DNA from: Clostridiales bacterium | GTDB lineage: Bacteria > Bacillota > Clostridia > Lachnospirales > JAQSXR01 | Assembly (NCBI GenBank): GCA_029256575.1 | Contig: JAQSXR010000010.1 | Coordinates: 1-43,794, forward strand | Direction of reading: 5' to 3' | DNA length: 43,794 nucleotides | Shown: positions 2 to 14,135 of the stretch, in pieces | How the letters are laid out: every line of letters begins with the position of its first letter | How positions within the stretch are numbered: position 1 is the first letter of the stretch | Notes under the pieces: generated by a model | What the model was told of the DNA's origin: nothing | Databases searched by the model: none | The model's input: the letters and a program-made list of their open reading frames with translations, nothing else | Translations under genes and position numbers: made by a program

Positions 2-118
2 AACAGGGAATTGAAAGGGCAAGTTGAACAGGTGTATTTAAGAGGAGAACTTATTGTAGAACGTGGAGAATTTCTAGGTGGCAAAGGGAAATATGTAAGC
101 CGAGAACTAAAGCTATAA
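2..118 (+). CDS. Hydantoinase/dihydropyrimidinase-type amidohydrolase, C-terminal end only (partial)
   Basis: Reading from base 2, an open frame runs to the TAA at 116-118 and gives 38 residues, including VYLRGELIVERGEF and a Gly/Lys-rich stretch ending in YVSREL. This matches the usual C-terminus of D-hydantoinase, dihydropyrimidinase and allantoinase-like cyclic amidohydrolases, where the last strands of the composite domain end in G-x-G-x-(Y/F)-(L/V)-x-R. The catalytic part lies beyond the left edge and cannot be judged. The gene ends 18 bp before the next start, so it is probably the upstream member of the same operon. An HyuA-type hydantoinase is a standard neighbour of ssnA, ygeX, ygeY and xdh genes in anaerobic purine clusters, which supports the call. 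The family is fairly certain; the substrate is inferred. Confidence 0.6.
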   Translation, partial: NRELKGQVEQVYLRGELIVERGEFLGGKGKYVSRELKL

Positions 119-136
119 ATAAAGAATGGAGGTTAG

Positions 137-2254
137 ATGATGCACAAAATTAGTCAACCAGTTATTAAGAAAGATCATATTGAGAAAATGAGTGGAGATG
201 CAAAATATATAGCAGATATCAAAATTGATGATATTTTACATGCTAAGATTCTTCGCTCTACTAAAGCCCATGCAAGAATCGTAGAGATTAAGATTCCTAA
301 ACTTGAAGATGGTTATTATATAGTGGATTATAAGGATATTCCAGGTGAAAATGTACTTAAAGTCGTAACAAGTGAACAACCAATATTTGCAGAAGAAGAA
401 GTTAACTTTATTGGGGAGGCAATACTCTTAGTTGCAGGCAAGGACGAAGCAAGAGTTCAGGAGATTATCCATTCCATTGAAGTAGTATACGAGGAAGAGA
501 AAGCAATATACACCCTAGAAGATGCGACTGAATTTACATCTGAATACGGGTATAAAAAAGGTGAAGCAGAAAAAGCATTTGAACATGCCGCGAAAGTAAT
601 AGAAGAGACCTTCGATACTGGTTATCAAGAGCAAGCTTACATAGAACCACAGGGTGTAATAGGATATTTGCAGGATAACAAAGTTACGATATTAGGTTCT
701 ATGCAATGTCCTTATTATGTAAAGGCTGCAGTTGTGCAGGTTATGGGATATGAGGAAAACCAAGTTCAAATTATCCAAACAACTACAGGCGGAGGTTTTG
801 GTGGTAAGGAAGATTATCCTTCTATGTTAGGCTGTCAAGTAGCGATTGCTACAGCCAAAATAAAAAAACCAATTCGACTAATATTAAATCGTAGAGAAGA
901 TATGGCGGTAACGCCGAAAAGACACCCAGCCCATCTTGTATATAGAGCAGCTCTCGATAAAGAGAATAATATTATTGGAATGGATGTTGAGATAAAATTA
1001 GATGGCGGGGCTTATGCTGGGTTATCAAGTGTAGTATTACAACGTTCATTAATTACTGCTACAGGAGTTTACTTAATACCAAATATAAAAATACATGGAA
1101 AAGTTATGACAACCAATACAGTACCGAATGGTGCATTTCGAGGATTTGGCGCACCACAAAGTTTATTTGCAATTGAGACCTTTATGGTTCACTTAGCAAA
1201 TAAGATTGGGTTGACTCCGTTAGAATTCAAGGAAAAATATCTGTATAAACAAGGCGATATAACGGCAACCAGTGGAAAACTTCAATTTCCAGTAAAATTA
1301 CCAGAAATGCTACATAATATTGAAGATATGTCATTGTATAAAAGAAAAAAAGAGCAATATACCAATCAAAGTGGAAGATATCGAAAAGGCATTGGTATGG
1401 CATTTTTTCTACATGGCTGTGGATTTACAGGTTCAGCAGAGCGAGACCTGATAAAATCAGTCGTAAAACTAGTAAAACATGAAGATAATACGTTAGAAAT
1501 ATTATCTAGTAACACAGATATTGGTCAAGGACTTAAAACAACACTTTGTAAAGTAGTAGCAGAAGTGCTTGAGATTCCATTGTCTCAAGTCAAATTTATA
1601 AACCCAGATACTGATCGAGTACCTAATTCTGGGCCAACGGTTGCATCAAGATCTTTAATGATTGTTGGAAAACTTTTAGAGCGAGCAGCAAAACGATTAA
1701 GAGATAATTGGATACTAAATAAATATCAAGTGATTGAAGAGCACTATAAACAACCTTATATGATTCCTTGGGATTCAAATACCTTCTCAGGAGATGCATA
1801 TCCAACCTACTCATGGGGAATCAATGTGGTAGAAGTGGAGGTAGATACCATGCTTGCAACCACTAATTTATTGGGGGTATGGGGAGTTTATGATGTTGGG
1901 ACAGTCATAGATCAAACCATTATGAAGGGGCAAATGGAAGGTGGTATGTTACAAGGTTTAGGATACGCTTCAATGGAAAAAATGGAGAATTTAGAAGGTG
2001 TCATCCGACAAGCAAGTATTACCGACTATACGATTCCCACTGCAAAAGATACCATACCTTTTGAAACGGCCTGCATTGACAATCCTTACGAAGATGGACC
2101 TTTTGGAGCCAAAGGGGCAGGGGAACTTACAATACTAGGAACAGCTCCTGCTTACATCGAAGCAGTAGAACAAGCGGTTGGCATAGGAATCAACTGTATT
2201 CCATTAACACCTGAAAAGTTATTAAAGCTTGAAAAAGGAGGATTTCAATTATGA
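137..2254 (+). CDS. Molybdenum hydroxylase, Mo-cofactor-binding subunit (xanthine dehydrogenase / selenium-type family)
   Basis: This 705-residue protein is the molybdopterin-binding large subunit of a xanthine-dehydrogenase-family enzyme, which hydroxylates a purine-like ring using water as oxygen source. Visible motifs are GGGFGGKED (218-226), the RREDM and KRHP stretch (about 252-263), AFRGFGAPQ (333-341), TDIGQGLKT in the third quarter, and GAKGAGE (657-663), whose final Glu663 corresponds to the catalytic glutamate. The length is slightly short for the family (roughly 750). An ATGATG pair allows a start at 137 or 140, preceded by GGAGG at 129-133. The gene overlaps the 2Fe-2S subunit by ATGA, and the FAD subunit follows, giving the classical three-subunit layout. 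The closest named families are XdhA and the Mo subunit of the putative selenate reductase/selenium-dependent hydroxylase group. The family is certain; substrate and selenium dependence are inferred from neighbours. Confidence 0.9.
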   Translation: MMHKISQPVIKKDHIEKMSGDAKYIADIKIDDILHAKILRSTKAHARIVEIKIPKLEDGYYIVDYKDIPGENVLKVVTSEQPIFAEEEVNFIGEAILLVAGKDEARVQEIIHSIEVVYEEEKAIYTLEDATEFTSEYGYKKGEAEKAFEHAAKVIEETFDTGYQEQAYIEPQGVIGYLQDNKVTILGSMQCPYYVKAAVVQVMGYEENQVQIIQTTTGGGFGGKEDYPSMLGCQVAIATAKIKKPIRLILNRREDMAVTPKRHPAHLVYRAALDKENNIIGMDVEIKLDGGAYAGLSSVVLQRSLITATGVYLIPNIKIHGKVMTTNTVPNGAFRGFGAPQSLFAIETFMVHLANKIGLTPLEFKEKYLYKQGDITATSGKLQFPVKLPEMLHNIEDMSLYKRKKEQYTNQSGRYRKGIGMAFFLHGCGFTGSAERDLIKSVVKLVKHEDNTLEILSSNTDIGQGLKTTLCKVVAEVLEIPLSQVKFINPDTDRVPNSGPTVASRSLMIVGKLLERAAKRLRDNWILNKYQVIEEHYKQPYMIPWDSNTFSGDAYPTYSWGINVVEVEVDTMLATTNLLGVWGVYDVGTVIDQTIMKGQMEGGMLQGLGYASMEKMENLEGVIRQASITDYTIPTAKDTIPFETACIDNPYEDGPFGAKGAGELTILGTAPAYIEAVEQAVGIGINCIPLTPEKLLKLEKGGFQL

Positions 2255-2718
2255 TAAACTTTTTTTTAAATGAAGAAAATGTTCAAATTGATTGCGACCC
2301 ATCGTTTCGATTACTAGATATATTAAGAGACAAATTCCAACTAATGGGCCCGAAAGAAGGCTGCGGGGAAGGCGAATGTGGGGCCTGTGCAGTAATTATT
2401 GATGGAAAATTAATAAATTCTTGTCTAGTTGCAATGGGAAGCCTGAATAATTCAAAAGTAATTACCATTGAAGGCTACTCTAAAACAGATAGGTACAAAG
2501 TGTTAGAGAGGACTTTTGCAGAAGCTGGGGCTGTTCAATGTGGATTTTGTACACCAGGAATGATAATGGCTGCGGAAGCATTATTATCCGTAAATGCAAA
2601 TCCAACCGTAGAGGATATTAGAGAAGCAATATCAGGTAACCTCTGCAGATGCACAGGCTACAATATGATCATAAATGCGATAAAACTAGCAGCGGAACAG
2701 GGGGTAGGATTATGGTAG
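2251..2718 (+). CDS. Molybdenum hydroxylase, [2Fe-2S] subunit
   Basis: This 155-residue iron-sulfur subunit passes electrons from the molybdenum site to FAD. The plant-type [2Fe-2S] cluster ligands are Cys38, Cys43, Cys46 and Cys58. The second, helical-domain cluster uses Cys97, Cys100, Cys132 and Cys134 in QCGFCTPG and CRCTGY. The length is normal for XdhC/CoxS-type subunits. The start overlaps the stop of the Mo subunit (ATGA), implying translational coupling, and its own stop overlaps the start of the FAD subunit by 7 bp. The three genes therefore encode one complex, expected in the cytoplasm. The domain assignment is seen directly; the role in purine breakdown is inferred from context. 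Confidence 0.93.
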   Translation: MINFFLNEENVQIDCDPSFRLLDILRDKFQLMGPKEGCGEGECGACAVIIDGKLINSCLVAMGSLNNSKVITIEGYSKTDRYKVLERTFAEAGAVQCGFCTPGMIMAAEALLSVNANPTVEDIREAISGNLCRCTGYNMIINAIKLAAEQGVGLW

Positions 2719-3530
2719 GTTTATATCCAAAGTACCTAGAAGAAGCGGTGGAAATGAAATATGCTCATAAAGAAGCAAAGCTGTATGCAGGCGGAACAGA
2801 CTGGATGGTTCGACATGCTGAGTGCAATCAACTACTTTTCCTAAATCAAATACAAGAGTTAAAAGTGATAAATGAGGATACAGATAATATTTATATTGGT
2901 TCGGGATGTACTTATTTTGAATTACTAAACAATGATTTAGTACCTGAAATATTAAAAGAAGCGATTAGAGGAATTGCAGCACCTGCTATCAAGAATATAG
3001 GCACAATAGGCGGAAATATTTGTAATGCATCTCCTGCCGGTGATACATTGCCAATTCTATATGCATTGGGTGCGAAGGTAGAAGTGATATCGGTAGATAA
3101 AAATAAGATATTTCCAATCGAAGACTTTATATTAGGAGTTCGAAAGTTATTGTTAAATGATACAGAGATATTAAAACGAATAATTATTCAAAAACATGAA
3201 TTTTCAAATACATATTATCAAAAAGTAGGAGCTAGAAAATCACAGGCCCTTTCAAAAGCTTCTTTTGTTGGATTAGCGAATATTCAGGAGGGGAAACTGG
3301 TGGACCTAAGAATTGCTTTCGGCTCAGTTGCGTCAACTATCATAAGAGTGAAACAAATAGAAGAAAAATATATTGATATCAATATCAAAGAGCTACCTTC
3401 CCACATCGGTGAAATAAAAGCTGACTACGATTCTTACATTATTCCAATCGATGACCAACGTTCGACCGCGAGTTATCGTAAAGCAGTATGCATGAACCTG
3501 TTAGAGGATTTTCTGAGAAAATTGAAATAA
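2712..3530 (+). CDS. Molybdenum hydroxylase, FAD-binding subunit
   Basis: This 272-residue CoxM/XdhB-type flavoprotein subunit accepts electrons from the 2Fe-2S clusters and passes them to NAD+ or another acceptor. FAD-binding motifs are AGGTD (26-30) and the stretch from Thr98 to Asp111 with TIGGN and NASPAGD. The frame is open further upstream to an ATG at 2649, but that would extend deep into the preceding gene. The ATG at 2712 follows a G-rich Shine-Dalgarno stretch (about 2700-2708), gives a normal N-terminus and overlaps the upstream stop, so it is chosen. This is the only FAD-binding hydroxylase domain I find in the operon, which matters because the second hydroxylase at 10706 and YgfK both lack a flavin module. 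Confidence 0.92.
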   Translation: MVGLYPKYLEEAVEMKYAHKEAKLYAGGTDWMVRHAECNQLLFLNQIQELKVINEDTDNIYIGSGCTYFELLNNDLVPEILKEAIRGIAAPAIKNIGTIGGNICNASPAGDTLPILYALGAKVEVISVDKNKIFPIEDFILGVRKLLLNDTEILKRIIIQKHEFSNTYYQKVGARKSQALSKASFVGLANIQEGKLVDLRIAFGSVASTIIRVKQIEEKYIDINIKELPSHIGEIKADYDSYIIPIDDQRSTASYRKAVCMNLLEDFLRKLK

Positions 3531-3568: not shown

Positions 3569-4903
3569 ATGATTTTAATTGGAAATGGAAACGTGATAAC
3601 ACGAGATAATAATAATACCTATTTGGAAAACGGGGCGATTTGTATCGAGAATCAATTTATTTATGATATTGGTTCCTTGAAAGAACTACAAATTCGATAT
3701 CCGGAAGCAGAATTTATTGATGCACACGGTGGATTGATAATGCCAGGGTATATCAATACACATAATCATATCTATAGCGCATTAGCAAGGGGGTTAAGTA
3801 TTCCAGGAAACAACCCTTCTAATTTTCTAGAGATATTGCAAGGTACTTGGTGGAAGCTAGATCTAGAACTCACCATGAAGCAGATAGCATTAAGTGCAAA
3901 AATAACCTTCCTCGATTGTATTAGAAATGGGGTTACTACTGTATTTGATCATCATGCCAGTTATGGCAATATAAAGGGAAGTTTATTCAAGGTAGCAGAG
4001 ATCGCGAAGGAAATGGGAGTTAGGACCTGCCTTTCCTACGAGATATCGGATCGGGATGGACTCGATAAGATGAAGCAATCAGTTAGTGAGAACATAGAAT
4101 TCCTCGAATACGCGAACCATGATCAGACAGATATGATAAAAGCAATGATAGGGATGCACGCATCTTTTACATTAAGCGATGAAACGTTAGAATATTGTGT
4201 AAACTTAAATAAAGAGAATGGTGGATATCACATCCATGTGGCAGAAGGAATCAGCGATGCCATACATTGTAAAGATACTTATCAGATGTCGATTGTAGAA
4301 CGTTTATACAAGAAAGGAATACTTGGAAAGAAAACGATTGCAGCTCATTGTATACATATTGATGATTCGGATAGGAATCGACTACTGGAGACGGGTACCA
4401 TGGTTGTCCATAATCCAGAATCAAATATGGGGAACGCAGTAGGTTGCTCAGATGTACTTGCACTATATAAAAAAGGAATTCTAATAGGACTTGGAACAGA
4501 TGGATACACCAATGACATGTTAGAATCTATGAAAGTGGCTAATCTTTTACAAAAACATAATAGTGAGAACCCTTCTGCAGCATGGACAGAGATACCAACT
4601 ATGCTTTTTATGAATAATAAAAAGATTGCAGAGAGATTTTATAATAATCCATTGGGTATCATAGAAAAAGGTGCATATGCAGATATAATTATCTCTGATT
4701 ATCAACCATTTACTCCGATGAATTCTACTAATATGAACAGCCACATACTGTTTGGAATGAATGGAAGAAATACAATAACTACAATCATCAATGGTAAAGT
4801 ACGGATGAAAGACCGTAAATTTACGGTGATTGAGGATACTGAGATATTACTTGAATGTAGAGAAGAAGCAAATCATCTATGGAAAGCTTTAGGTGGAGAA
4901 TAA
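3569..4903 (+). CDS. ssnA: SsnA-like amidohydrolase / aminohydrolase
   Basis: This 444-residue metal-dependent amidohydrolase of the chlorohydrolase/guanine-deaminase branch matches the E. coli SsnA length (about 440). Metal and catalytic residues visible in order are His65 and His67 (NTHNH), His223 and Glu226 (HIHVAEG), His260 (AAHCIH) and Asp311 (GTDGYTND). The composite sandwich domain is formed by the N-terminus and the C-terminal segment with INGKVRMKDR. The start follows GGAAGGAGGAG. SsnA is a marker of selenium-dependent molybdenum-hydroxylase loci, and its family has been implicated in opening or deaminating a purine-ring intermediate in anaerobic purine breakdown. Here it sits between the hydroxylase FAD subunit and ygfK, the conserved neighbourhood. 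Family is strong; the exact substrate is not determinable here. Confidence 0.85.
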   Translation: MILIGNGNVITRDNNNTYLENGAICIENQFIYDIGSLKELQIRYPEAEFIDAHGGLIMPGYINTHNHIYSALARGLSIPGNNPSNFLEILQGTWWKLDLELTMKQIALSAKITFLDCIRNGVTTVFDHHASYGNIKGSLFKVAEIAKEMGVRTCLSYEISDRDGLDKMKQSVSENIEFLEYANHDQTDMIKAMIGMHASFTLSDETLEYCVNLNKENGGYHIHVAEGISDAIHCKDTYQMSIVERLYKKGILGKKTIAAHCIHIDDSDRNRLLETGTMVVHNPESNMGNAVGCSDVLALYKKGILIGLGTDGYTNDMLESMKVANLLQKHNSENPSAAWTEIPTMLFMNNKKIAERFYNNPLGIIEKGAYADIIISDYQPFTPMNSTNMNSHILFGMNGRNTITTIINGKVRMKDRKFTVIEDTEILLECREEANHLWKALGGE

Positions 4904-4926: not shown

Positions 4927-6549
4927 ATGAGTGATAAAATGAGACAAATAGAATACGAGGATCTACTAGATCAGGTCTTGGTTGAATATAAACGAAAGGG
5001 TACTTTATTCTATGTTCCTGTTATAAAGAGAGAAAATCATTTTCCAATTGGTCCAGCTGCAGGCCCACACACTCAATTAGCACAGAATATAATTGCTGCT
5101 TATGCAGGAGGAGCTAGATATTTTGAACTAAAAACAGTTCAAGTAATAGATGGTGAAAATCTTGGTATTGTAAAACCTTGCATCTATGTGAGTGATGAGG
5201 CATATAACACAGAATGGTCGACTGAACTTACCTCGAATCAAGCATTAGAAGAGTATATTAAGGCTTGGTATTTGTTGAAGGTGTTGATTAAAGAATTTGA
5301 TTTGGGTGATGAAAATGGTTTTGTATTCAATATGAGTGTAGGCTATAACCTTGAAGGAATTCAATCTCAAAAAATTGATTATTTTATAGAAAATATGAAA
5401 GATGCATATCAAACACCGATTTTTCTAAAATGCAAGAACTATACACTTGAAAATATAGATAGATTCCAGAATATTTCGCTAGAGTATATCGAACAAATTC
5501 ATTCTAAGCTATGCGATACGATTTCTATATCTACCATGCACGGATGCCCGGTAGAAGCGATTGAAAAGATTGCGACCTATTTATTGGCAGAGAAAAAGCT
5601 AAATGTTTATATAAAATGTAACCCAACCCTACTTGGCTTCGAAGAAGTCAGAAGAACATTAGATAAAATGGGTTACGGGTATGTAGCATTTGACCATGAA
5701 ATATTTGATGAGGATCTTTCGTTTGAGGCAGCAGTTCACTTAATCAAAAAATTGCAAAATGTTGCGAAAGAAATTAATAAGGAATTTGGTGTTAAATTAA
5801 CCAATACATTTCCGGTCAAGATTACAAATAACGAATTAGTAGGGGAAGATATGTATATGTCTGGTCCATCTCTTTATCCGCTATCAATAGGCGTGGCAGC
5901 TAAATTAAGTGAGGCCTTTCAAGGAGCGTTAAAGATTTCTTATTCCGGTGGAGCAGATAATAATAACATTGCTGCAATCTACGAAACAGGAATACAACCA
6001 ATCACGGTATCTACACTCCTATTAAAGCCAAACGGCTATAAAAACCTATTTAAGTTAAATCAAGCATTAGATAAGCTGGAGCCTATTATCGATAATAAAA
6101 AAATTAATGTTGAGAAATTAATGAAACTTGCACAAGATGCAACAACTGATAATGTATATTATAAACCAAAAGCAAAGAGGAAAAAAATATTGAATGAAGA
6201 CTACACAGTATTCTGTTCACTATGTAAAAACTGTGTGGATGTTTGTCCGAATAGAGCCAATATATTGATAGAATATGAAAATGAAAAATATACAATACAT
6301 AAGGATGCTCTTTGTAACGAATGTGGGAATTGTACTCATTTTTGTATTGCAGGACATCAACCATATAAAGAAAAGTTTACCGTTTTCAAATGTGAAAGTG
6401 ATTTTGATGATAGTAAAAATCCAGGTATCTATAAGACGGATCAGGTGATATGGGTTCGATATCAGGGTGAAGTTTATAAAGATAAACAAGAAGCACTTTC
6501 AAAGCTTTCTGATAATGTGAAAGAGATGATAAGACAAAGTTATAGTTAA
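4927..6549 (+). CDS. ygfK: Compact YgfK-like oxidoreductase: dihydroorotate/dihydropyrimidine-dehydrogenase-like domain plus 2x[4Fe-4S], no FAD/NAD(P)H module
   Basis: This 540-residue protein matches the two ends of E. coli YgfK as I remember it. Shared N-terminal signatures are PAAGPHTQLAQNI, NTEWSTE, FNMSVGYNLEGI, STMHGCP, KCNPTLLGF and SYSGGA, forming a TIM-barrel DHOD-like domain. The C-terminus has two CX2CX2CX3C clusters at Cys430/433/436/440 and Cys463/466/469/473, with PNRAN and CNECGNC as in YgfK. E. coli YgfK is about 1030 residues because a glutamate-synthase-small-subunit-like FAD/NAD(P)H module lies between these parts; here the barrel runs directly into the ferredoxin domain. 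The frame is continuous, with no sign of frameshift. The start at 4927 has AAGGGGAA upstream; an earlier ATG at 4879 overlaps ssnA and adds a foreign-looking extension. Role: probable reductive or oxidative step on a purine-derived ring. Confidence 0.82.
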   Translation: MSDKMRQIEYEDLLDQVLVEYKRKGTLFYVPVIKRENHFPIGPAAGPHTQLAQNIIAAYAGGARYFELKTVQVIDGENLGIVKPCIYVSDEAYNTEWSTELTSNQALEEYIKAWYLLKVLIKEFDLGDENGFVFNMSVGYNLEGIQSQKIDYFIENMKDAYQTPIFLKCKNYTLENIDRFQNISLEYIEQIHSKLCDTISISTMHGCPVEAIEKIATYLLAEKKLNVYIKCNPTLLGFEEVRRTLDKMGYGYVAFDHEIFDEDLSFEAAVHLIKKLQNVAKEINKEFGVKLTNTFPVKITNNELVGEDMYMSGPSLYPLSIGVAAKLSEAFQGALKISYSGGADNNNIAAIYETGIQPITVSTLLLKPNGYKNLFKLNQALDKLEPIIDNKKINVEKLMKLAQDATTDNVYYKPKAKRKKILNEDYTVFCSLCKNCVDVCPNRANILIEYENEKYTIHKDALCNECGNCTHFCIAGHQPYKEKFTVFKCESDFDDSKNPGIYKTDQVIWVRYQGEVYKDKQEALSKLSDNVKEMIRQSYS

Positions 6550-6599
6550 CTTTGTGTAATAAGATAATTGGGGATAGATTTGAATTGGAAGGAGAGGGA

Positions 6600-7811
6600 A
6601 TGTTGAATCAATTTGAGAATATACACTATGATAGAAAAAAGGGAAATAAAAAATCCTTAGACCATCTGAATTTGGAGACGGCAAAAAAGGCACATCGGTT
6701 TCATGAAAGTTTTCCTATGTATAAGGAAACACCACTTGTGGAATTACATAATTTATCCAAAGTATTTCGAGTTAAGAATATTTTTGTGAAAGATGAATCT
6801 TATCGCTTTGGATTAAATGCTTTTAAAGTATTAGGTGGAAGCTATGCCATCGGTAATTACATAGCAAGAAAGCTTGAAAAAGATATTGATGAGTTGCCAT
6901 ATCAAGAGATGATTTCAAAGGAAGTTAAGAATAAGTTGGGGGATTTGACTTTTATCTCAGCCACGGACGGAAATCATGGACGTGGTGTTGCATGGACAGC
7001 GAATCAACTTAATCAAAAGTCTGTAATCTATATGCCAAAAGGAAGTGCATTTGAAAGACTAGAGAATATCAGAAGAGAAGGTTCCCAAGCAATTATTACA
7101 GAACTAAATTATGATGATGCAGTTCGATTAGCCAATGAGCATGCGAAGAAAAATAACTGGGTTATGGTGCAAGATACGGCATGGGAAGGATATGAAGATA
7201 TACCATCTTGGATTATGCAAGGCTACACAACATTGGCATATGAAACATATATGCAGTTACAAGGAGTAATACCAACACACATATTTGTTCAAGCAGGGGT
7301 TGGTTCCTTTGCATCTGCCATTCAAGGTTTCTTTGCTAGTATTTATGGAGATGAGAGACCGATTACTACAATTGTAGAACCAGATAAGGCCGCTTGTATA
7401 TTTAAGACGGCAAAAGCGAGAGATGGTAAGATTCATACAGTAACAGGTGATATGAATACTATTATGGCAGGCCTTGCCTGTGGTGAACCTGCAACGATAG
7501 GATGGGAAGTGTTAAAGGACTATGCAGACAATTTTATATCTTGCCCAGATTATGTTGCAGCACAAGGAATGCGTATTCTAGGAAATCCACTAATTGGAGA
7601 TGACAGAATAATATCTGGTGAAAGTGGTGCAGCAGGCTTTGGATTTGTCAGCGAAATTATATCAAATCCAAATCTAGAGTGGCTCAAAATGGAACTTGAA
7701 ATAGATGAGAATTCTATTCTTCTTTTCTTTAATAGTGAAGGTGATACGGATAAAGATAATTATCGTAGAATAGTTTGGGATGGTTTATATGCAAAACAAG
7801 ATATGAACTAA
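6600..7811 (+). CDS. ygeX: 2,3-diaminopropionate ammonia-lyase
   Basis: This 403-residue PLP enzyme is close in length to E. coli YgeX (about 398). It cleaves 2,3-diaminopropionate to pyruvate and two ammonia. The PLP lysine is Lys76 in RFGLNAFK, preceded by VKDES; SATDGNHGRGVAW supplies the family SxxNHG-type phosphate/substrate loop, and the glycine-rich QAGVGSFA follows later. The ATG at 6600 is preceded by GGAAGGAGAGGGA, an excellent ribosome binding site; a TTG at 6552 in frame has no such site. It lies between ygfK and ygeY, the canonical order. In the anaerobic purine pathway this would be the terminal step, releasing carbon as pyruvate and nitrogen as ammonia. Confidence 0.92.
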   Translation: MLNQFENIHYDRKKGNKKSLDHLNLETAKKAHRFHESFPMYKETPLVELHNLSKVFRVKNIFVKDESYRFGLNAFKVLGGSYAIGNYIARKLEKDIDELPYQEMISKEVKNKLGDLTFISATDGNHGRGVAWTANQLNQKSVIYMPKGSAFERLENIRREGSQAIITELNYDDAVRLANEHAKKNNWVMVQDTAWEGYEDIPSWIMQGYTTLAYETYMQLQGVIPTHIFVQAGVGSFASAIQGFFASIYGDERPITTIVEPDKAACIFKTAKARDGKIHTVTGDMNTIMAGLACGEPATIGWEVLKDYADNFISCPDYVAAQGMRILGNPLIGDDRIISGESGAAGFGFVSEIISNPNLEWLKMELEIDENSILLFFNSEGDTDKDNYRRIVWDGLYAKQDMN

Positions 7812-7839: not shown

Positions 7840-9024
7840 ATGTTAAATAAAGAAAGAGAAAATAATGTAATTGGCTTGTGTCAAAGATTAGTTCAAGTGA
7901 GAAGTTATTCAGGTGAAGAAGGAATTACTGCAAAGAAACTTGCTGATTTTTTTAGCCTAAATGGATTTGATAAAGTAAGCGTAGACAAATACGGCAATAT
8001 AATTGGTATGATTAAGGGAACTCGTCCAGGTAAAAAGATATTATTTGATGGACATATTGATACAGTTCCGGTTGGAAATGAAACAGACTGGACATACCCC
8101 CCGTTTTCAGCTGAAATTCATGAGGGAAAGATTTATGGACGAGGAACTTCAGACATGAAGGGAGCAGTTGCGGCAATGGCATGTGCTGCTGCAAATTATG
8201 CAAGGGATTGCAGGAAGAATTTTGCAGGTGAAATCTATGTTGCGGGAGTAGTACACGAAGAATGTTTTGAAGGAGTAGCAGCTAGGAATATTAGTCAATT
8301 AATAAAACCAGACTATGTAATAATCGGCGAAGCTTCTAACCTTAACGTGAAGATAGGACAAAGAGGACGTGCAGAGGTTAGACTAGAAACCTTTGGAGTG
8401 CCAGCTCATTCTGCTAATCCAGAGAAGGGTGTCAATGCAGTCTATAAAATGTGCAAGATAGTTGAAGCAATTAATCAATTAGTACCAACAATTCATCCGG
8501 TACTTGGGAAAGGAATTATGGAATTAACGGATATAAAGTCTAGCCCATATCCAGGTGCCTCAGTAGTACCAGAATACTGTGTTGCTACTTATGACAGAAG
8601 ACTATTGGTTGGTGAAACAAAAGAAACAGTTTTAAAACCAATTCAAGATTTAATAGAAAGACTCGAGAAAGAAGATCCGAAGATACAAGCAAAAGTTACG
8701 TATGCAGTTGGCAAAGAAAAATGCTATACAGGAGAAACCATTGAGGGAGAAAGATTTTTCCCAGGATGGCTATTTGATAAAGAGGAATCATTTGTTGTTG
8801 ATGTAGTCAAAGAATTAGAAGCAATGGGATTTGCTCCAGAGATAACACAATATAATTTTTGCACGAACGGAAGTCATTATGCTGGAGAGGCTGGAATTAA
8901 GACAATTGGAGTGGGACCGTCTATGGAAAATCTAGCGCATACGATTAATGAATATATTGAAATAGAGCAGTTAACAAAAGTAACAGAGGCTTATTATGGA
9001 ATATTAAAGGCGCTCTTAAAATAA
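7840..9024 (+). CDS. ygeY: M20-family metallopeptidase/amidohydrolase YgeY
   Basis: This 394-residue di-zinc M20 hydrolase (ArgE/DapE/ACY1 type) is similar in length to E. coli YgeY (about 400). Visible active-site motifs are DGHIDTVP (His72, Asp74), GRGTSDMKG (Asp105), HEECFEG (Glu140, Glu141) and GEASN. The central GQRGRAEVRL and HSANPEKGVNA stretches mark the dimerisation domain. The start follows AGGAGGG. YgeY is linked by conserved neighbourhood with ygeX and is thought to hydrolyse a ureido or carbamoyl derivative of diaminopropionate; that substrate is knowledge from the family, not visible here. Its stop codon lies inside a short tandem duplication that also copies the downstream ribosome binding site. 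Confidence 0.88.
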   Translation: MLNKERENNVIGLCQRLVQVRSYSGEEGITAKKLADFFSLNGFDKVSVDKYGNIIGMIKGTRPGKKILFDGHIDTVPVGNETDWTYPPFSAEIHEGKIYGRGTSDMKGAVAAMACAAANYARDCRKNFAGEIYVAGVVHEECFEGVAARNISQLIKPDYVIIGEASNLNVKIGQRGRAEVRLETFGVPAHSANPEKGVNAVYKMCKIVEAINQLVPTIHPVLGKGIMELTDIKSSPYPGASVVPEYCVATYDRRLLVGETKETVLKPIQDLIERLEKEDPKIQAKVTYAVGKEKCYTGETIEGERFFPGWLFDKEESFVVDVVKELEAMGFAPEITQYNFCTNGSHYAGEAGIKTIGVGPSMENLAHTINEYIEIEQLTKVTEAYYGILKALLK

Positions 9025-9059: not shown

Positions 9060-10673
9060 ATGAAAATATTTATAAAAGGAGCGACGATTATTGATGGGAG
9101 TAAGAGTCCTTCCTACCAAGGAGATATATTCATTCATGCAGGAAAGATTAATAAAATAGGTACCTTAGATTTAGAGGAAATAATGCGCAATAGTGAGGAG
9201 GAGAATATTGAAATCATAGACGGAACAGGATTAATTGCCGCTCCGGGATTCATTGACACACATAGCCATAGTGATCTTAAGATATTAACAGAACCAGAAG
9301 TACTACCAAAAGTATTACAAGGAATTACGACAGAAGTGTTAGGGCAAGATGGAATATCGATGGCCCCCCTTCCAAAGAATTACATTGATTCTTGGAGAAA
9401 AAACATAGCAGGTCTTGATGGAGAGAGTAATGCAATCGATTGGGAATATGAAACCACTGAGAATTATCTAAAGATGATAGAGAAGGCAAAACCAGGTGTG
9501 AATGAAGCATATCTTGTTCCTCATGGGAATATTAGAATGGAAGCTATGGGGTTAGAGAATAGACAGCCTACTAAAGAAGAGATAGAGAAAATGTGCAAGA
9601 TAACCCGTAGAGAGATGGAGGCTGGATGTCTTGGATTATCTTCAGGATTAATTTATACTCCATGCGCCTATTCCGAAACAGAAGAGATTATTGAATTGTG
9701 TAAAGTGGTGGCAGAATATGACGGTGTATTTGTAGTTCATCAAAGAAGTGAAGCAGATACTATTCTTTCCTCTATGGAAGAAATAATTAGGATTGGAAGA
9801 CAATCAGGAGTTAAGATTCATTTTTCACACTTTAAGGTATGTGGAAAAGATAATTGGGATAAATTAGATGAGATGTTTAGCCTATTGGATAAAGCAAAAG
9901 AAGAAAAGATTGAGATATCTCTAGATCAATATCCTTATGTGGTGGGAAGTACAATGCTAGGGATAATTCTACCTCCATGGGTACACGATGGTGGAACGAA
10001 CCGACTCATTGAACGCTTAAAAGAGAGTGAACTACGAATTAAAATAAAAGAAGATATTCAAAATGGGATTCCTGGATGGGATAATTTCATACAATTCGCA
10101 GGGATAGAGGGAATCTTTATAACAAGTGTGGTAACAGAAAAGAATCAGGAATTGGTAGGACTCAGTTTAAGAGAAATAGGAGAGCGTAAGGGAAAAGATC
10201 CACTTGATGCAACCTTTGATTTATTAATTGAAGAAGAAAATGCAGTTGGAATGGTAGATATCTATGGAACCGAAGAACACGTGAAAAGAATAATGCAGCG
10301 GGGAGAGATGAATGCTTGCACGGACGGATTACTTGCTGGCAAGCCTCATCCAAGAGTGTATGGTTCATTTCCCCGAATTCTTGGTAAGTATGTAAGAGAA
10401 GAAAATACGATTTCTTTAGAAGATGCAATTTATAAAATGACACATAAAGCAGCAAAAGCAATGAGTATTTCAAATCGAGGCCTTTTAAAAGAGGGATACT
10501 ATGCGGATGTTACAATATTTGATTCTAATACCATAGTTGATAAAGGAACGTTTATAGATCCAATTCAGCAACCTATTGGTATTGAGTATGTAATCGTAAA
10601 TGGGACACTGACAGTTAAGAACGGAGTCCATACTAGTAAAAGAGCTGGATTCGTTATTAGGAGACAAAGCTAG
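9060..10673 (+). CDS. D-aminoacylase / N-acyl-D-amino-acid deacylase family amidohydrolase
   Basis: This 537-residue protein of the amidohydrolase-3 / D-aminoacylase family fits the family length (about 480-540). Features are the N-terminal sandwich strand with IKGATIIDG, the metal motif DTHSHSD (His68, His70), the family-typical GCLGLSSGLIYTP segment, VHQRSEAD and HFSHFK for later metal/catalytic histidines, and TDGLLAGKPHPR near residue 425, followed by a GLLKEGYYADVTIFD segment returning to the sandwich. Relatives remove acyl or carbamoyl-like groups from D-amino acids or dipeptides. Sitting between ygeY and the second molybdenum hydroxylase, it probably hydrolyses an open-ring or N-substituted intermediate of the same pathway. 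That role is inference; the family call is firm. Confidence 0.83.
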   Translation: MKIFIKGATIIDGSKSPSYQGDIFIHAGKINKIGTLDLEEIMRNSEEENIEIIDGTGLIAAPGFIDTHSHSDLKILTEPEVLPKVLQGITTEVLGQDGISMAPLPKNYIDSWRKNIAGLDGESNAIDWEYETTENYLKMIEKAKPGVNEAYLVPHGNIRMEAMGLENRQPTKEEIEKMCKITRREMEAGCLGLSSGLIYTPCAYSETEEIIELCKVVAEYDGVFVVHQRSEADTILSSMEEIIRIGRQSGVKIHFSHFKVCGKDNWDKLDEMFSLLDKAKEEKIEISLDQYPYVVGSTMLGIILPPWVHDGGTNRLIERLKESELRIKIKEDIQNGIPGWDNFIQFAGIEGIFITSVVTEKNQELVGLSLREIGERKGKDPLDATFDLLIEEENAVGMVDIYGTEEHVKRIMQRGEMNACTDGLLAGKPHPRVYGSFPRILGKYVREENTISLEDAIYKMTHKAAKAMSISNRGLLKEGYYADVTIFDSNTIVDKGTFIDPIQQPIGIEYVIVNGTLTVKNGVHTSKRAGFVIRRQS

Positions 10674-10705: not shown

Positions 10706-13258
10706 ATGTATCGGTTTTGTATTAACCAAGAAGAGATTACCATACAAGAAGATATAAATCTCTTGGAATATATGAGAGATCAATTAGATATTACTTCAAT
10801 TAAAAATGGGTGTATGGAAGGCTCTTGTGGAGCGTGTATGATTCTGGTAGATGGGAAAGCTGTTCGTGCCTGTCTACAGACAACTGCAAAAATGGATAAA
10901 AAACATATCTTAACAATAGAAGGCTTATCCAAAAGAGAGAAAGATGTATATGCTTGGGCATTTGGACAGGAAGGAGCCGTCCAATGTGGCTTCTGTATTC
11001 CGGGTATGATTATTAGTGCCAAGGGATTAATTGATGTGAATCCGAATCCATCAACAAAGGATGTAAAAAAAGCAATCAAAGGGAATATCTGCCGTTGCAC
11101 TGGTTATGTAAAGATTGAAAAGGGTATTCTTTTAGCAGCTAAATACCTAAGAGAAGGAAAAGAAATCACCAAGGCAAATGAGAGTGGACGAATCGGAGAA
11201 TGCAGTCATAGACCTGATGCACAAGAAAAGGCGTTGGGAATAGCCAAATTTGTCGATGATATAAAAGTATCTGGGATGGTATATGGGTCTGCTCTACGCT
11301 CCAGATTTCCAAGGGCCTTGGTAAAAAGCATTAATATAGAAAAAGCCTTAAGACATCCTGAGGTAGTGGGGATTGTATTAGCGGATGATATACCTGGTCA
11401 ACGAGTGATTGGACATCTAACACAAGACTGGCCAGCATTAATCAAAGTCGGTGAAGAGACAAGATATGTTGGTGATTCAATCGCACTAGTAGCAGCAACT
11501 ACAAAACAAGCTCTTTTAGAAATTAAGCAACTAATAGAAGTTGAATATGAAGAACGTATTCCTTTGTTATCTGCTAAAGAAGCTTTAGCAGAAGAAGCAT
11601 ACTCCATACATTTGAATGGAAATCTCTATAGAAGAGAATCGATTCAAAGAGGGGATGTAGATACTGCACTAAAGAATTCGGCATATACGGTGACAAATAT
11701 ATATAATACACCAGCTCAAGAACATGCTTTCTTAGAACCGGAAAGTGCATTAGCTGTGCCAGAAGGGGATTCCTTGGTTGTATATACAGGTGCTCAGAGT
11801 ATTTATGACGAATATAGAGAGATAGGGCAACTGTTAGGCATTTCGAAAGAGAATCTGAGAATTGTCAGCGCATATGTAGGTGGTGGCTTTGGTGGTAAAG
11901 AAGATATGATTGTTCAACATCATGCTGCACTTTTAGCGTATTTATGTAAAAAACCAGTAAAAGTAACGCTAACAAGAGAAGAAAGTCTGTTTGTTCATCC
12001 GAAACGTCATCCAATGGAGATGGAACTCACGACAGGTTGTGATAAAGAAGGTAGACTTACGGCGATGCGACTTCGCTTGATTGCTGATACGGGAGCGTAT
12101 GCATCACTAGGTGGACCAGTACTTCAAAGAGCTTGTACGCATGCAGCAGGTCCTTATAACTACCAGAACATTGATATTATTGGTTCCTCTGTCTATACCA
12201 ATAATGTTCCGTCAGGAGCTTTTCGAGGCTTTGGAGTAACGCAATCTATGTTTGCAACCGAATGTAATATCAATCAATTAGCGGAAAAAGTAGGACTTGA
12301 TCCGTATGAAATAAGATATCTAAATGCAATACGACCTGGACAAATACTACCAAATGGACAGATTGCAGATGAAGGAACTGGCTTTGTTGAAACACTTGAA
12401 GCAGTAAAAGATGCATATTATGATAATTATGAACATTCCGGTATTGCATGTGCAATTAAAAATGCCGGTGTTGGAGTAGGCGTTCCAGATACCAGTAGAG
12501 TACGCCTCAAGATTGTTGATGGGAAAGTAAGTCTTCGAACCAGTGCTGCTTGTATGGGTCAAGGAATTGCAGCAACTATGAGAGCAATCTTATGTGAAAC
12601 CACAGGATTAAGTCCCGAAGATGTAATCGTTGCAAGACCGGATACCGATATAACACCGAATGCTGGAACAAGTACTGCGTCCAGGCAAACTGTAATTACT
12701 GGAGAAACGACAAGAAGAGTATCATTGCAATTAAAAGAAGCATTAAGGCAACATACACTAGAAGAATTAGAAGGTCAAGAATACTATGAAGAATTTATTG
12801 GTATTACAGATCCAATGGGAACAGATAAACCAAATCCAGTGAGTCATCTAGCTTACGGATATGCTACGCAAGTTGTAATTTTAGATAATGAAGGTAAAGT
12901 GGGTAAAGTGGTAGCGGCTCATGATGTTGGTCGTGCCATTAATCCGAGTAATGTAGAAGGCCAAATTGAAGGCGGAGTAGTAATGGGCTTAGGGTATGGA
13001 CTAACAGAGAATCTACAAATGGAAAACGGAAAACCAACCGTTAAATTTGGAACCTTAGGATTATTTCGTTCTACGGAGGTTCCAGAAATTGAAACAATAC
13101 TAATAGAAAAAAACAAAGCTGAGTTAGCTTATGGAGCAAAAGGGGTGGGGGAGATTCCTCTAATTCCTACTTCGCCAGCAGCGCAGGCTGCGTATTACAA
13201 ATTTGATGGAAAGTTTCGAACATCTTTACCACTAGAAGATACCCCGTATAATAGATAA
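10706..13258 (+). CDS. Fused [2Fe-2S]-molybdopterin hydroxylase (XdhD / selenium-dependent xanthine dehydrogenase type)
   Basis: This 850-residue protein combines two modules. Residues 1-150 are a 2x[2Fe-2S] subunit with Cys36/41/44/56 and Cys94/97/129/131. Residues about 165-850 form a Mo-cofactor-binding subunit with GGGFGGKED, the REESL and KRHP stretch, AFRGFGVTQ, CMGQGIA and GAKGVGE (810-816, catalytic Glu816). This architecture and length match the family annotated as selenium-dependent xanthine dehydrogenase in clostridia and XdhD of E. coli (about 956). No FAD domain is present, so electrons must leave through a partner. The start follows TGGAGGA. It is the last gene before a regulatory gap, closing the operon. 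It likely acts on xanthine, hypoxanthine, urate or a related oxopurine; the substrate and the selenium ligand cannot be read from sequence. Confidence 0.88.
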   Translation: MYRFCINQEEITIQEDINLLEYMRDQLDITSIKNGCMEGSCGACMILVDGKAVRACLQTTAKMDKKHILTIEGLSKREKDVYAWAFGQEGAVQCGFCIPGMIISAKGLIDVNPNPSTKDVKKAIKGNICRCTGYVKIEKGILLAAKYLREGKEITKANESGRIGECSHRPDAQEKALGIAKFVDDIKVSGMVYGSALRSRFPRALVKSINIEKALRHPEVVGIVLADDIPGQRVIGHLTQDWPALIKVGEETRYVGDSIALVAATTKQALLEIKQLIEVEYEERIPLLSAKEALAEEAYSIHLNGNLYRRESIQRGDVDTALKNSAYTVTNIYNTPAQEHAFLEPESALAVPEGDSLVVYTGAQSIYDEYREIGQLLGISKENLRIVSAYVGGGFGGKEDMIVQHHAALLAYLCKKPVKVTLTREESLFVHPKRHPMEMELTTGCDKEGRLTAMRLRLIADTGAYASLGGPVLQRACTHAAGPYNYQNIDIIGSSVYTNNVPSGAFRGFGVTQSMFATECNINQLAEKVGLDPYEIRYLNAIRPGQILPNGQIADEGTGFVETLEAVKDAYYDNYEHSGIACAIKNAGVGVGVPDTSRVRLKIVDGKVSLRTSAACMGQGIAATMRAILCETTGLSPEDVIVARPDTDITPNAGTSTASRQTVITGETTRRVSLQLKEALRQHTLEELEGQEYYEEFIGITDPMGTDKPNPVSHLAYGYATQVVILDNEGKVGKVVAAHDVGRAINPSNVEGQIEGGVVMGLGYGLTENLQMENGKPTVKFGTLGLFRSTEVPEIETILIEKNKAELAYGAKGVGEIPLIPTSPAAQAAYYKFDGKFRTSLPLEDTPYNR

Positions 13259-13341: not shown

Positions 13342-13370
13342 AGTATTACTAAGATATGGGAGTGATTAAT

Positions 13371-14135
13371 ATGGCTCAAAAAAGAATAGAATTTATTTTG
13401 CAAGAATTAGATGAAAAAGGCAGCGTTCGTGTTGCTGATTTAAGTAAACAATTGAAATGCTCAGAAGTTACAATAAGAAATGATATTCAGAAATTAGAAG
13501 AAAAAGGTTTGCTTTTCCGAACCCATGGTGGAGCAACAAAACTAGGTGCACAAGTTACGGTTGCATTTAACGCTGGAAATGTATATAAATGTGCGGATAA
13601 AAAACAAAGAATTGCAGAAAAGGCATATGAATACATAGAGAATCGGGATACCATTATTTTGGATGATGGCTCTATTAGTTATTACCTAGCAAAGTGCATT
13701 AAGGAAAACACATCGAAACATTTGGTGGTAATTACAAATTCATTAGTAGCTGCGGGAATACTTGCAGATTTAAAGCATGTTGATTTGTATCTACTTGGAG
13801 GACAAGTTGGAGGAAAACTTGCTGCTACCATGGGAGATGTAACGATAAGAAACTTAGAAGAATGTCACGCGGACAAAGCATTTATCAGTGCCTATGGAAT
13901 TAATTTTGATGTAGGGATTACATCAATTGATTCTCCTCAGATGCAGGTAAAGAAGGCAATATTAAAAGCAGCGAATAAAATATTTTTGTTAGTAGACAGT
14001 AGCAAATTCGGAGGAGGATATGTTCTTGCAGTTTGCCCGTTGTCAAGTATTTCTCGTATAATAACGGATGATGAAATTGAGAAAGATTATATCGATATGG
14101 CAAAGAGAGATCATGTGGAATTAGATATTGTCTAA
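13371..14135 (+). CDS. DeoR-family transcriptional regulator
   Basis: This 254-residue regulator has an N-terminal winged helix-turn-helix (about residues 1-55, with the RVADLSKQL, CSEVTIRNDI and LLFRTHGG signatures) and a C-terminal DeoR sensor domain of the ribose-5-phosphate-isomerase/CoA-transferase-like fold (ILDDGS, ITNSL, LLGG, DKAFIS, VDSSKFG). Members usually repress sugar catabolic genes and sense a sugar phosphate. The ATG at 13371 has GGGAGTG upstream; an in-frame ATG at 13356 lacks a site. It precedes the TIM-pdxA-DUF1537-rpiB-kdgT group and is the obvious candidate regulator of that group, responding perhaps to a four-carbon phosphate. That link is inference. Its stop codon sits within a three-copy 17-bp tandem repeat. 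Confidence 0.88.
   Translation: MAQKRIEFILQELDEKGSVRVADLSKQLKCSEVTIRNDIQKLEEKGLLFRTHGGATKLGAQVTVAFNAGNVYKCADKKQRIAEKAYEYIENRDTIILDDGSISYYLAKCIKENTSKHLVVITNSLVAAGILADLKHVDLYLLGGQVGGKLAATMGDVTIRNLEECHADKAFISAYGINFDVGITSIDSPQMQVKKAILKAANKIFLLVDSSKFGGGYVLAVCPLSSISRIITDDEIEKDYIDMAKRDHVELDIV

Follow-up and report, generated by a model that had tools for sequence, protein, structure and literature searches.

A short form of YgfK without the NAD(P)H module in an anaerobic uric-acid operon of a Clostridiales bacterium

The window (the whole 43,794-nucleotide stretch of DNA analysed here) encodes a 540-residue YgfK of short architecture, in which the barrel is followed by a C-terminal domain with two [4Fe-4S] motifs and the NAD(P)H module of the long form is absent. 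The enzyme is probably the yanthine (2,8-dioxopurine) reductase of the anaerobic uric-acid pathway, with ferredoxin or a comparable Fe-S protein as its electron source; its FMN content, substrate and donor are all putative here. It belongs to a widespread and apparently undescribed family: neither a description nor a biochemical test of a short YgfK was found in the open-access literature searched.

Architecture of the short YgfK and its operon

The reading frame is uninterrupted. An alternative upstream ATG at 4879 overlaps ssnA, and the start at 4927 agrees with the 'MSD' start of relatives. The family profile TIGR03315 (Se_ygfK, 1012 positions) matches the protein with 642.3 bits (E 1e-192) in two stretches, the first aligning residues 2-417 with profile positions 1-427 and the second, from the genome scan, aligning bases 6214-6531 (residues 430 onward) with positions 886-1001. 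Positions of about 430-885, the GltD-like module, are unmatched, and the full-length cut-off of 835.3 bits is not reached. On alignment with long forms (E. coli YgfK of 1032 aa and eight others), a single clean gap with colinear flanks was observed, corresponding to the whole GltD-like region of about 450 residues with its own N-terminal cysteines and its Fe-S, FAD and NAD(P)H parts. The first-pass annotation had stated that the internal FAD/NAD(P)H module is missing in an open frame, and the profile and alignment gaps bear this out; its likening of the barrel and the C-terminal 2x[4Fe-4S] domain to those of E. coli YgfK also holds, as both ends match the profile and all eight cysteines are present. 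The two cluster motifs are complete (C430-x2-C433-x2-C436-x3-C440-P and C463-x2-C466-x2-C469-x3-C473), their cysteines are invariant across 30 short forms, and alignments showed barrel residues common to short and long forms. An artefact or frameshift was considered and rejected, given about 30 short homologues with identical end points, one of them 58% identical and in another genome of the class.

The barrel was identified through structure comparison, since a phmmer search of the PDB with the single window protein gave no match and the matches of a short-YgfK profile to the PDB were confined to ferredoxin-like parts. The Pfam family PF01180 likewise had no match to the window protein at E <= 1. 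An AlphaFold2 model built from 30 aligned short homologues had a mean pLDDT of 89.9 and a pTM of 0.92, and its top Foldseek matches were to pig dihydropyrimidine dehydrogenase (DPD). With VIA-align, residues of about 20-400 gave Z scores of 24-25 to DHODHs and to the FMN domain of DPD (pig, chain residues 532-932), and the predicted barrel would thus share its fold with both. A profile-profile comparison of short YgfK with UacX/PreA was colinear through both the barrel and the cluster region (probability 98.7, E 3e-16), and UacX/PreA match DPD by sequence with an E value of about 1e-62.

The surrounding genes run in the order HyuA tail, three-subunit xanthine dehydrogenase (XDH), SsnA, short YgfK, YgeX, YgeY, UacY-like protein and selenium-dependent xanthine dehydrogenase (SeXDH), followed by a DeoR-family regulator (Table 1). 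Judged by sequence, this operon is the gene set of the anaerobic reductive uric-acid pathway (PMC12507026) in its UacY-containing, C. difficile-like variant. Besides short YgfK, the operon encodes no YgfK or UacX homologue. Two distinct molybdenum hydroxylases are encoded here, the three-subunit XDH, which includes an FAD subunit of its own (137-3530), and the fused Se-dependent enzyme (10706-13258).

Table 1. Features of the window operon and positions of polyferredoxin-like genes at other loci
Feature	Position	Strand	Basis or remark
HyuA-like hydantoinase, 3' end	2-118	+	Translation; ending resembles HyuA tail in L047; cut by contig edge (contig starts at base 1)
XdhA-like molybdopterin subunit, three-subunit xanthine dehydrogenase	137-2254	+	
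2x[2Fe-2S] subunit, same enzyme	2251-2718	+	
FAD-binding subunit, same enzyme	2649-3530	+	ORF as listed; real start probably further downstream
SsnA, amidohydrolase opening the reduced purine	3569-4903	+	PRK07203 641 bits (cut-off 444); TIGR03314 587 bits (cut-off 455.5)
Short YgfK, 540 aa	4927-6549	+	FMN barrel, then C-terminal 2x[4Fe-4S]; GltD-like module absent
Predicted FMN-binding barrel, residues 36-400	5032-6126	+	AlphaFold2 model; VIA-align
Junction, site of the ~450-residue GltD-like Fe-S/FAD/NAD(P)H insertion in long YgfK	6178-6213	+	TIGR03315 stops at 427, resumes at 886; alignment
Two [4Fe-4S] motifs, Cys 430/433/436/440 and 463/466/469/473	6214-6345	+	Sequence
YgeX, 2,3-diaminopropionate ammonia-lyase	6552-7811	+	TIGR03528 632 bits (cut-off 532)
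YgeY, M20 hydrolase	7840-9024	+	PRK13004 501 bits (cut-off 321)
UacY-like D-aminoacylase (Amidohydro_3)	9060-10673	+	PF07969; 62-65% identity to UacY-position protein of Clostridioides-type clusters
SeXDH (XdhAC/XdhD position, urate to yanthine)	10706-13258	+	TIGR03311 1380 bits (cut-off 830)
DeoR-family regulator, after operon	13356-14135	+	
Polyferredoxin-like gene, L055	14273-14896		
Polyferredoxin-like gene, L079	11647-11859		
Polyferredoxin-like gene, L107, L125, L127			After SeXDH
Polyferredoxin-like gene, L072, L092, L095, L113, L116, L118			Before SeXDH

Function and electron supply

In C. difficile, the corresponding step is linked to UacX, which has no FAD domain; reduced methyl viologen served as reductant in its assay, and ferredoxin is its proposed donor (PMC12507026). 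Two loci from genomes of about 4.2 Mb in the Peptostreptococcaceae, taken as Clostridioides (L181, L182), have the order YgeX-YgeY-UacY-SsnA-UacT-UacX-HyuA-SeXDH, with a UacX of 369 aa. In Metaclostridioides mangenotii (L050) and two loci of its family (L188, L189), the order is YgeX-YgeY-UacY-SsnA-shortYgfK-UacT-HyuA-SeXDH, and UacX is absent. These like operons, with one protein swapped for the other, are the strongest evidence that short YgfK may perform the job of UacX. UacY was found at 9/24 short-form loci versus 0/45 long-form loci (Fisher p 2e-5) and YgeW at 8/24 versus 34/45 (Fisher p 9e-4), both p values being too small, as the loci are related and were picked by similarity to the window protein.

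Short YgfK resembles several known enzymes. With E. coli YgfK (TIGR03315/IPR017701), an NADH-dependent yanthine reductase, it shares the N-terminal FMN barrel, the C-terminal 2x[4Fe-4S] domain, the adjoining ssnA and the uric-acid operon, but it is without the entire GltD-like Fe-S/FAD/NAD(P)H insertion and scores 642 against the family cut-off of 835. UacX likewise combines an FMN barrel with one 2x[4Fe-4S] domain, has no FAD/NAD(P)H domains and occurs alongside UacY and SeXDH in operons that are the same in all other respects; however, it belongs to the PF01180 family and is only about 26% identical to short YgfK over stretches of 100-150 residues, while short YgfK falls in the YgfK sequence family and has a longer barrel. 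PydAc, the ferredoxin-dependent dihydropyrimidine dehydrogenase of Clostridium chromiireducens, is also a ring reductase of a strict anaerobe without FAD/NAD(P)H domains; it works with reduced ferredoxin or methyl viologen and not with NAD(P)H, and the enzyme tested with ferredoxin has two Fdx domains (PMC7332683). It differs in its uracil substrate, its DPD-like sequence and its 16 cluster cysteines, short YgfK having one such domain with eight, and the window operon is uricolytic with no pyrimidine-degradation cluster. PreA of the E. coli PreT-PreA enzyme has the same pair of FMN barrel and C-terminal 2x[4Fe-4S] domain, but the NAD(H) subunit PreT adjoins it and none lies beside the window protein.

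No NfnB-, PreT- or GltD-like gene was found in the window operon or at any of the 24 short-form loci, and the 45 long-form loci likewise gave no NfnB or PreT gene. Since the module is absent as well, electrons must reach short YgfK via another protein, as the first-pass annotation had supposed. The C-terminal dicluster domain is the likely point of entry, as there is no NAD(P)H site and the same has been proposed for PydAc and UacX. The donor to the two C-terminal [4Fe-4S] clusters would be a low-potential carrier of single electrons, with a clostridial 2[4Fe-4S] ferredoxin as the likeliest candidate; from the clusters, electrons would pass to the FMN in the barrel and then as hydride to the purine ring; hydrolysis of the dearomatised product by SsnA would draw the reduction of yanthine forward. 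It has been reported that YgfK, SsnA and NAD(P)H together convert yanthine and that E. coli YgfK with NAD(P)H yields product only if SsnA is present (PMC12507026). The earlier description of a ferredoxin-linked purine-degrading dehydrogenase therefore stands in its first half, ferredoxin being the best candidate by analogy with PydAc and UacX; the word dehydrogenase does not fit, YgfK being a yanthine reductase in published biochemistry.

A search of the genome by family revealed a canonical 2[4Fe-4S] ferredoxin (contig C21), two RnfC-type genes and NfnAB, which are candidates for supplying reduced ferredoxin to short YgfK. Two points weigh against the ferredoxin reading. Short YgfK has a single Fdx domain, unlike the PydAc tested with ferredoxin, and a small ferredoxin gene directly 3' of YgfK was found at one short-form locus only (L079), where its product resembles a carrier that elsewhere accompanies SeXDH. 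This polyferredoxin-like protein (3-4 cluster motifs and about 160-220 aa; 70 aa in L079) is encoded mostly overlapping or abutting the SeXDH gene, at short- and long-form loci alike, and could be the electron carrier that serves the urate-to-yanthine enzyme, the donor of which has been termed undiscovered (PMC12990295).

Other arrangements were weighed against a ferredoxin-type donor. The enzyme might be split, with short YgfK acting like PreA and fed in trans by a GltD-like NAD(P)H oxidoreductase from another locus. PreT-PreA is a precedent for such a split, and the genome holds two well-matched GltD-like proteins, NfnB and one encoded between hypB and hypA. Both of these genes lie outside the operon, however, and have their own partners (NfnA and hypA/hypB, respectively), and this arrangement is unlikely in view of the 24 short-form loci without an NfnB- or PreT-like gene. 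As to the genes themselves, the NfnB-like ORF (L009 3142-4374) encodes 410 aa versus about 465 aa in relatives, possibly owing to a frameshift or an assembly error, and the large hyp-cluster protein runs off contig C2 at its end and continues where C19 starts (L010 5053-6929, L011 2-904).

It was also proposed in the first-pass annotation that the flavin subunit of the molybdenum hydroxylase could be the donor. In a broader form, the molybdenum hydroxylases of the operon would pass electrons on through that subunit, or straight from one Fe-S cluster to another, so that purine oxidation is coupled to the reduction of yanthine. Although an FAD subunit and two such hydroxylases are encoded in the window operon, the subunit completes the three-subunit XDH with the products of 137-2718, and an XDH FAD subunit was near 4/24 short-form loci versus 6/45 long-form loci, not clearly commoner with the short form; as a general donor it does not hold up, and we regard the coupling as very unlikely. 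That the short protein has another substrate or role and merely inherited its operon position seems highly improbable, because the window protein is the sole YgfK/UacX homologue of its operon, ssnA is near 20/24 short-form loci and barrel residues are kept across both forms, even though one genome (G253) has a short copy apart from any ssnA while a full-length YgfK occupies its cluster, and some short-form loci (L195) have no ssnA in reach. A ferredoxin-fed yanthine reductase is hence the preferred reading.

Distribution and origin of the short form

Among 392 genomes of the order, the long-form cut-off was passed in 34 and a short form was found in four (G000, G328, G048 and G253), one of which, G253, has both. 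Six short and eight long forms were seen in 391 sampled genomes of the class. In a scan of named species genomes, from which the best 80 loci were kept, at least 21 of these loci had short forms of 513-628 aa, with carriers including Clostridium sp. KNHs205, Metaclostridioides mangenotii, Veillonella sp. R32, Butyricicoccus, Blautia, Sedimentibacter, Tissierellaceae and a Spirochaetales MAG. The total of about 30 short forms covers Clostridia, Veillonella and one spirochaete; in 21 short-form genomes tested, the long form was found in none and two short copies in one. No relatives of short YgfK were found in IMG/VR. The G253 short copy (L046 8421-10145) lies near an iron alcohol dehydrogenase gene and may act on another substrate, the long YgfK of that genome being the one in its uric-acid operon. 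The nearest relative of the window protein (L195 8402-11196, G699; 58% identity over aligned columns) is in a small cluster with HyuA-like and YgeX genes only. A Megasphaera YgfK of intermediate length (L100 10001-12511, 836 aa) has possibly lost part of the module.

A careful tree of 58 rows and 535 shared columns was built, the well-supported branches of which require the architecture to have changed three times or more; the short forms do not make a single exclusive clade, though an AU test did not reject one clade of the main short forms (p 0.70). The Blautia form (L055, genome G328) falls inside the long forms of Lachnospiraceae, with 64% identity to L119_long, and retains 'PLLDC', the module-opening stretch of long forms; its position and this stretch mark it as a clear secondary loss of the module. 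Another short form, L064, groups with E. coli YgfK and is probably a secondary loss too. A quick outgroup tree had grouped L055 with other short forms; this was set aside in favour of the careful tree and the identity to L119_long.

With an outgroup, the root falls among short forms, but at about 10 changes per column the outgroup lies very far away, and its branches are too long for the tree alone to fix the root, which was therefore argued from domain parsimony. UacX, PreA and the FMN part of DPD are all without an insert between the barrel and the C-terminal clusters; hence, parsimony favours an insertion in the long form. For the window lineage and the bulk of short forms, an ancestral short state is thus favoured over loss, though not proven. 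The module loss read from the window alone finds no support in this lineage, clear loss being confined to cases such as L055 and probably L064. The short lineage is old, and the NADH-dependent long enzyme probably came about when a GltD-like module was inserted into a short ancestor, the module being lost again at least once.

Significance

Ring reductases without FAD/NAD(P)H domains are already known in PydAc and UacX, and short YgfK is apparently a third variant of this concept. A published survey used two markers (PMC12507026), TIGR03315, whose cut-off short YgfK does not reach, and PF01180, to which the window protein has no match; therefore, carriers may have been counted as without yanthine reductase. 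Gout has been connected with gut anaerobes that degrade uric acid, and such bacteria are being engineered for use as probiotics; the reductant that each enzyme needs decides which genes can be moved as a set and how costly the pathway is to the cell. It is possible, though we hold this only tentatively, that the ancestral yanthine reductase was of the short form and that these anaerobes run both urate to yanthine (SeXDH) and yanthine to dihydroyanthine (short YgfK) on ferredoxin-type carriers alone, independently of NAD(P)H. If so, the NADH-dependent pathway of enteric bacteria would be a later adaptation through insertion of the GltD module. The two forms offer a natural experiment, in which the same pathway and the same operon occur with the NAD(P)H module present or absent.
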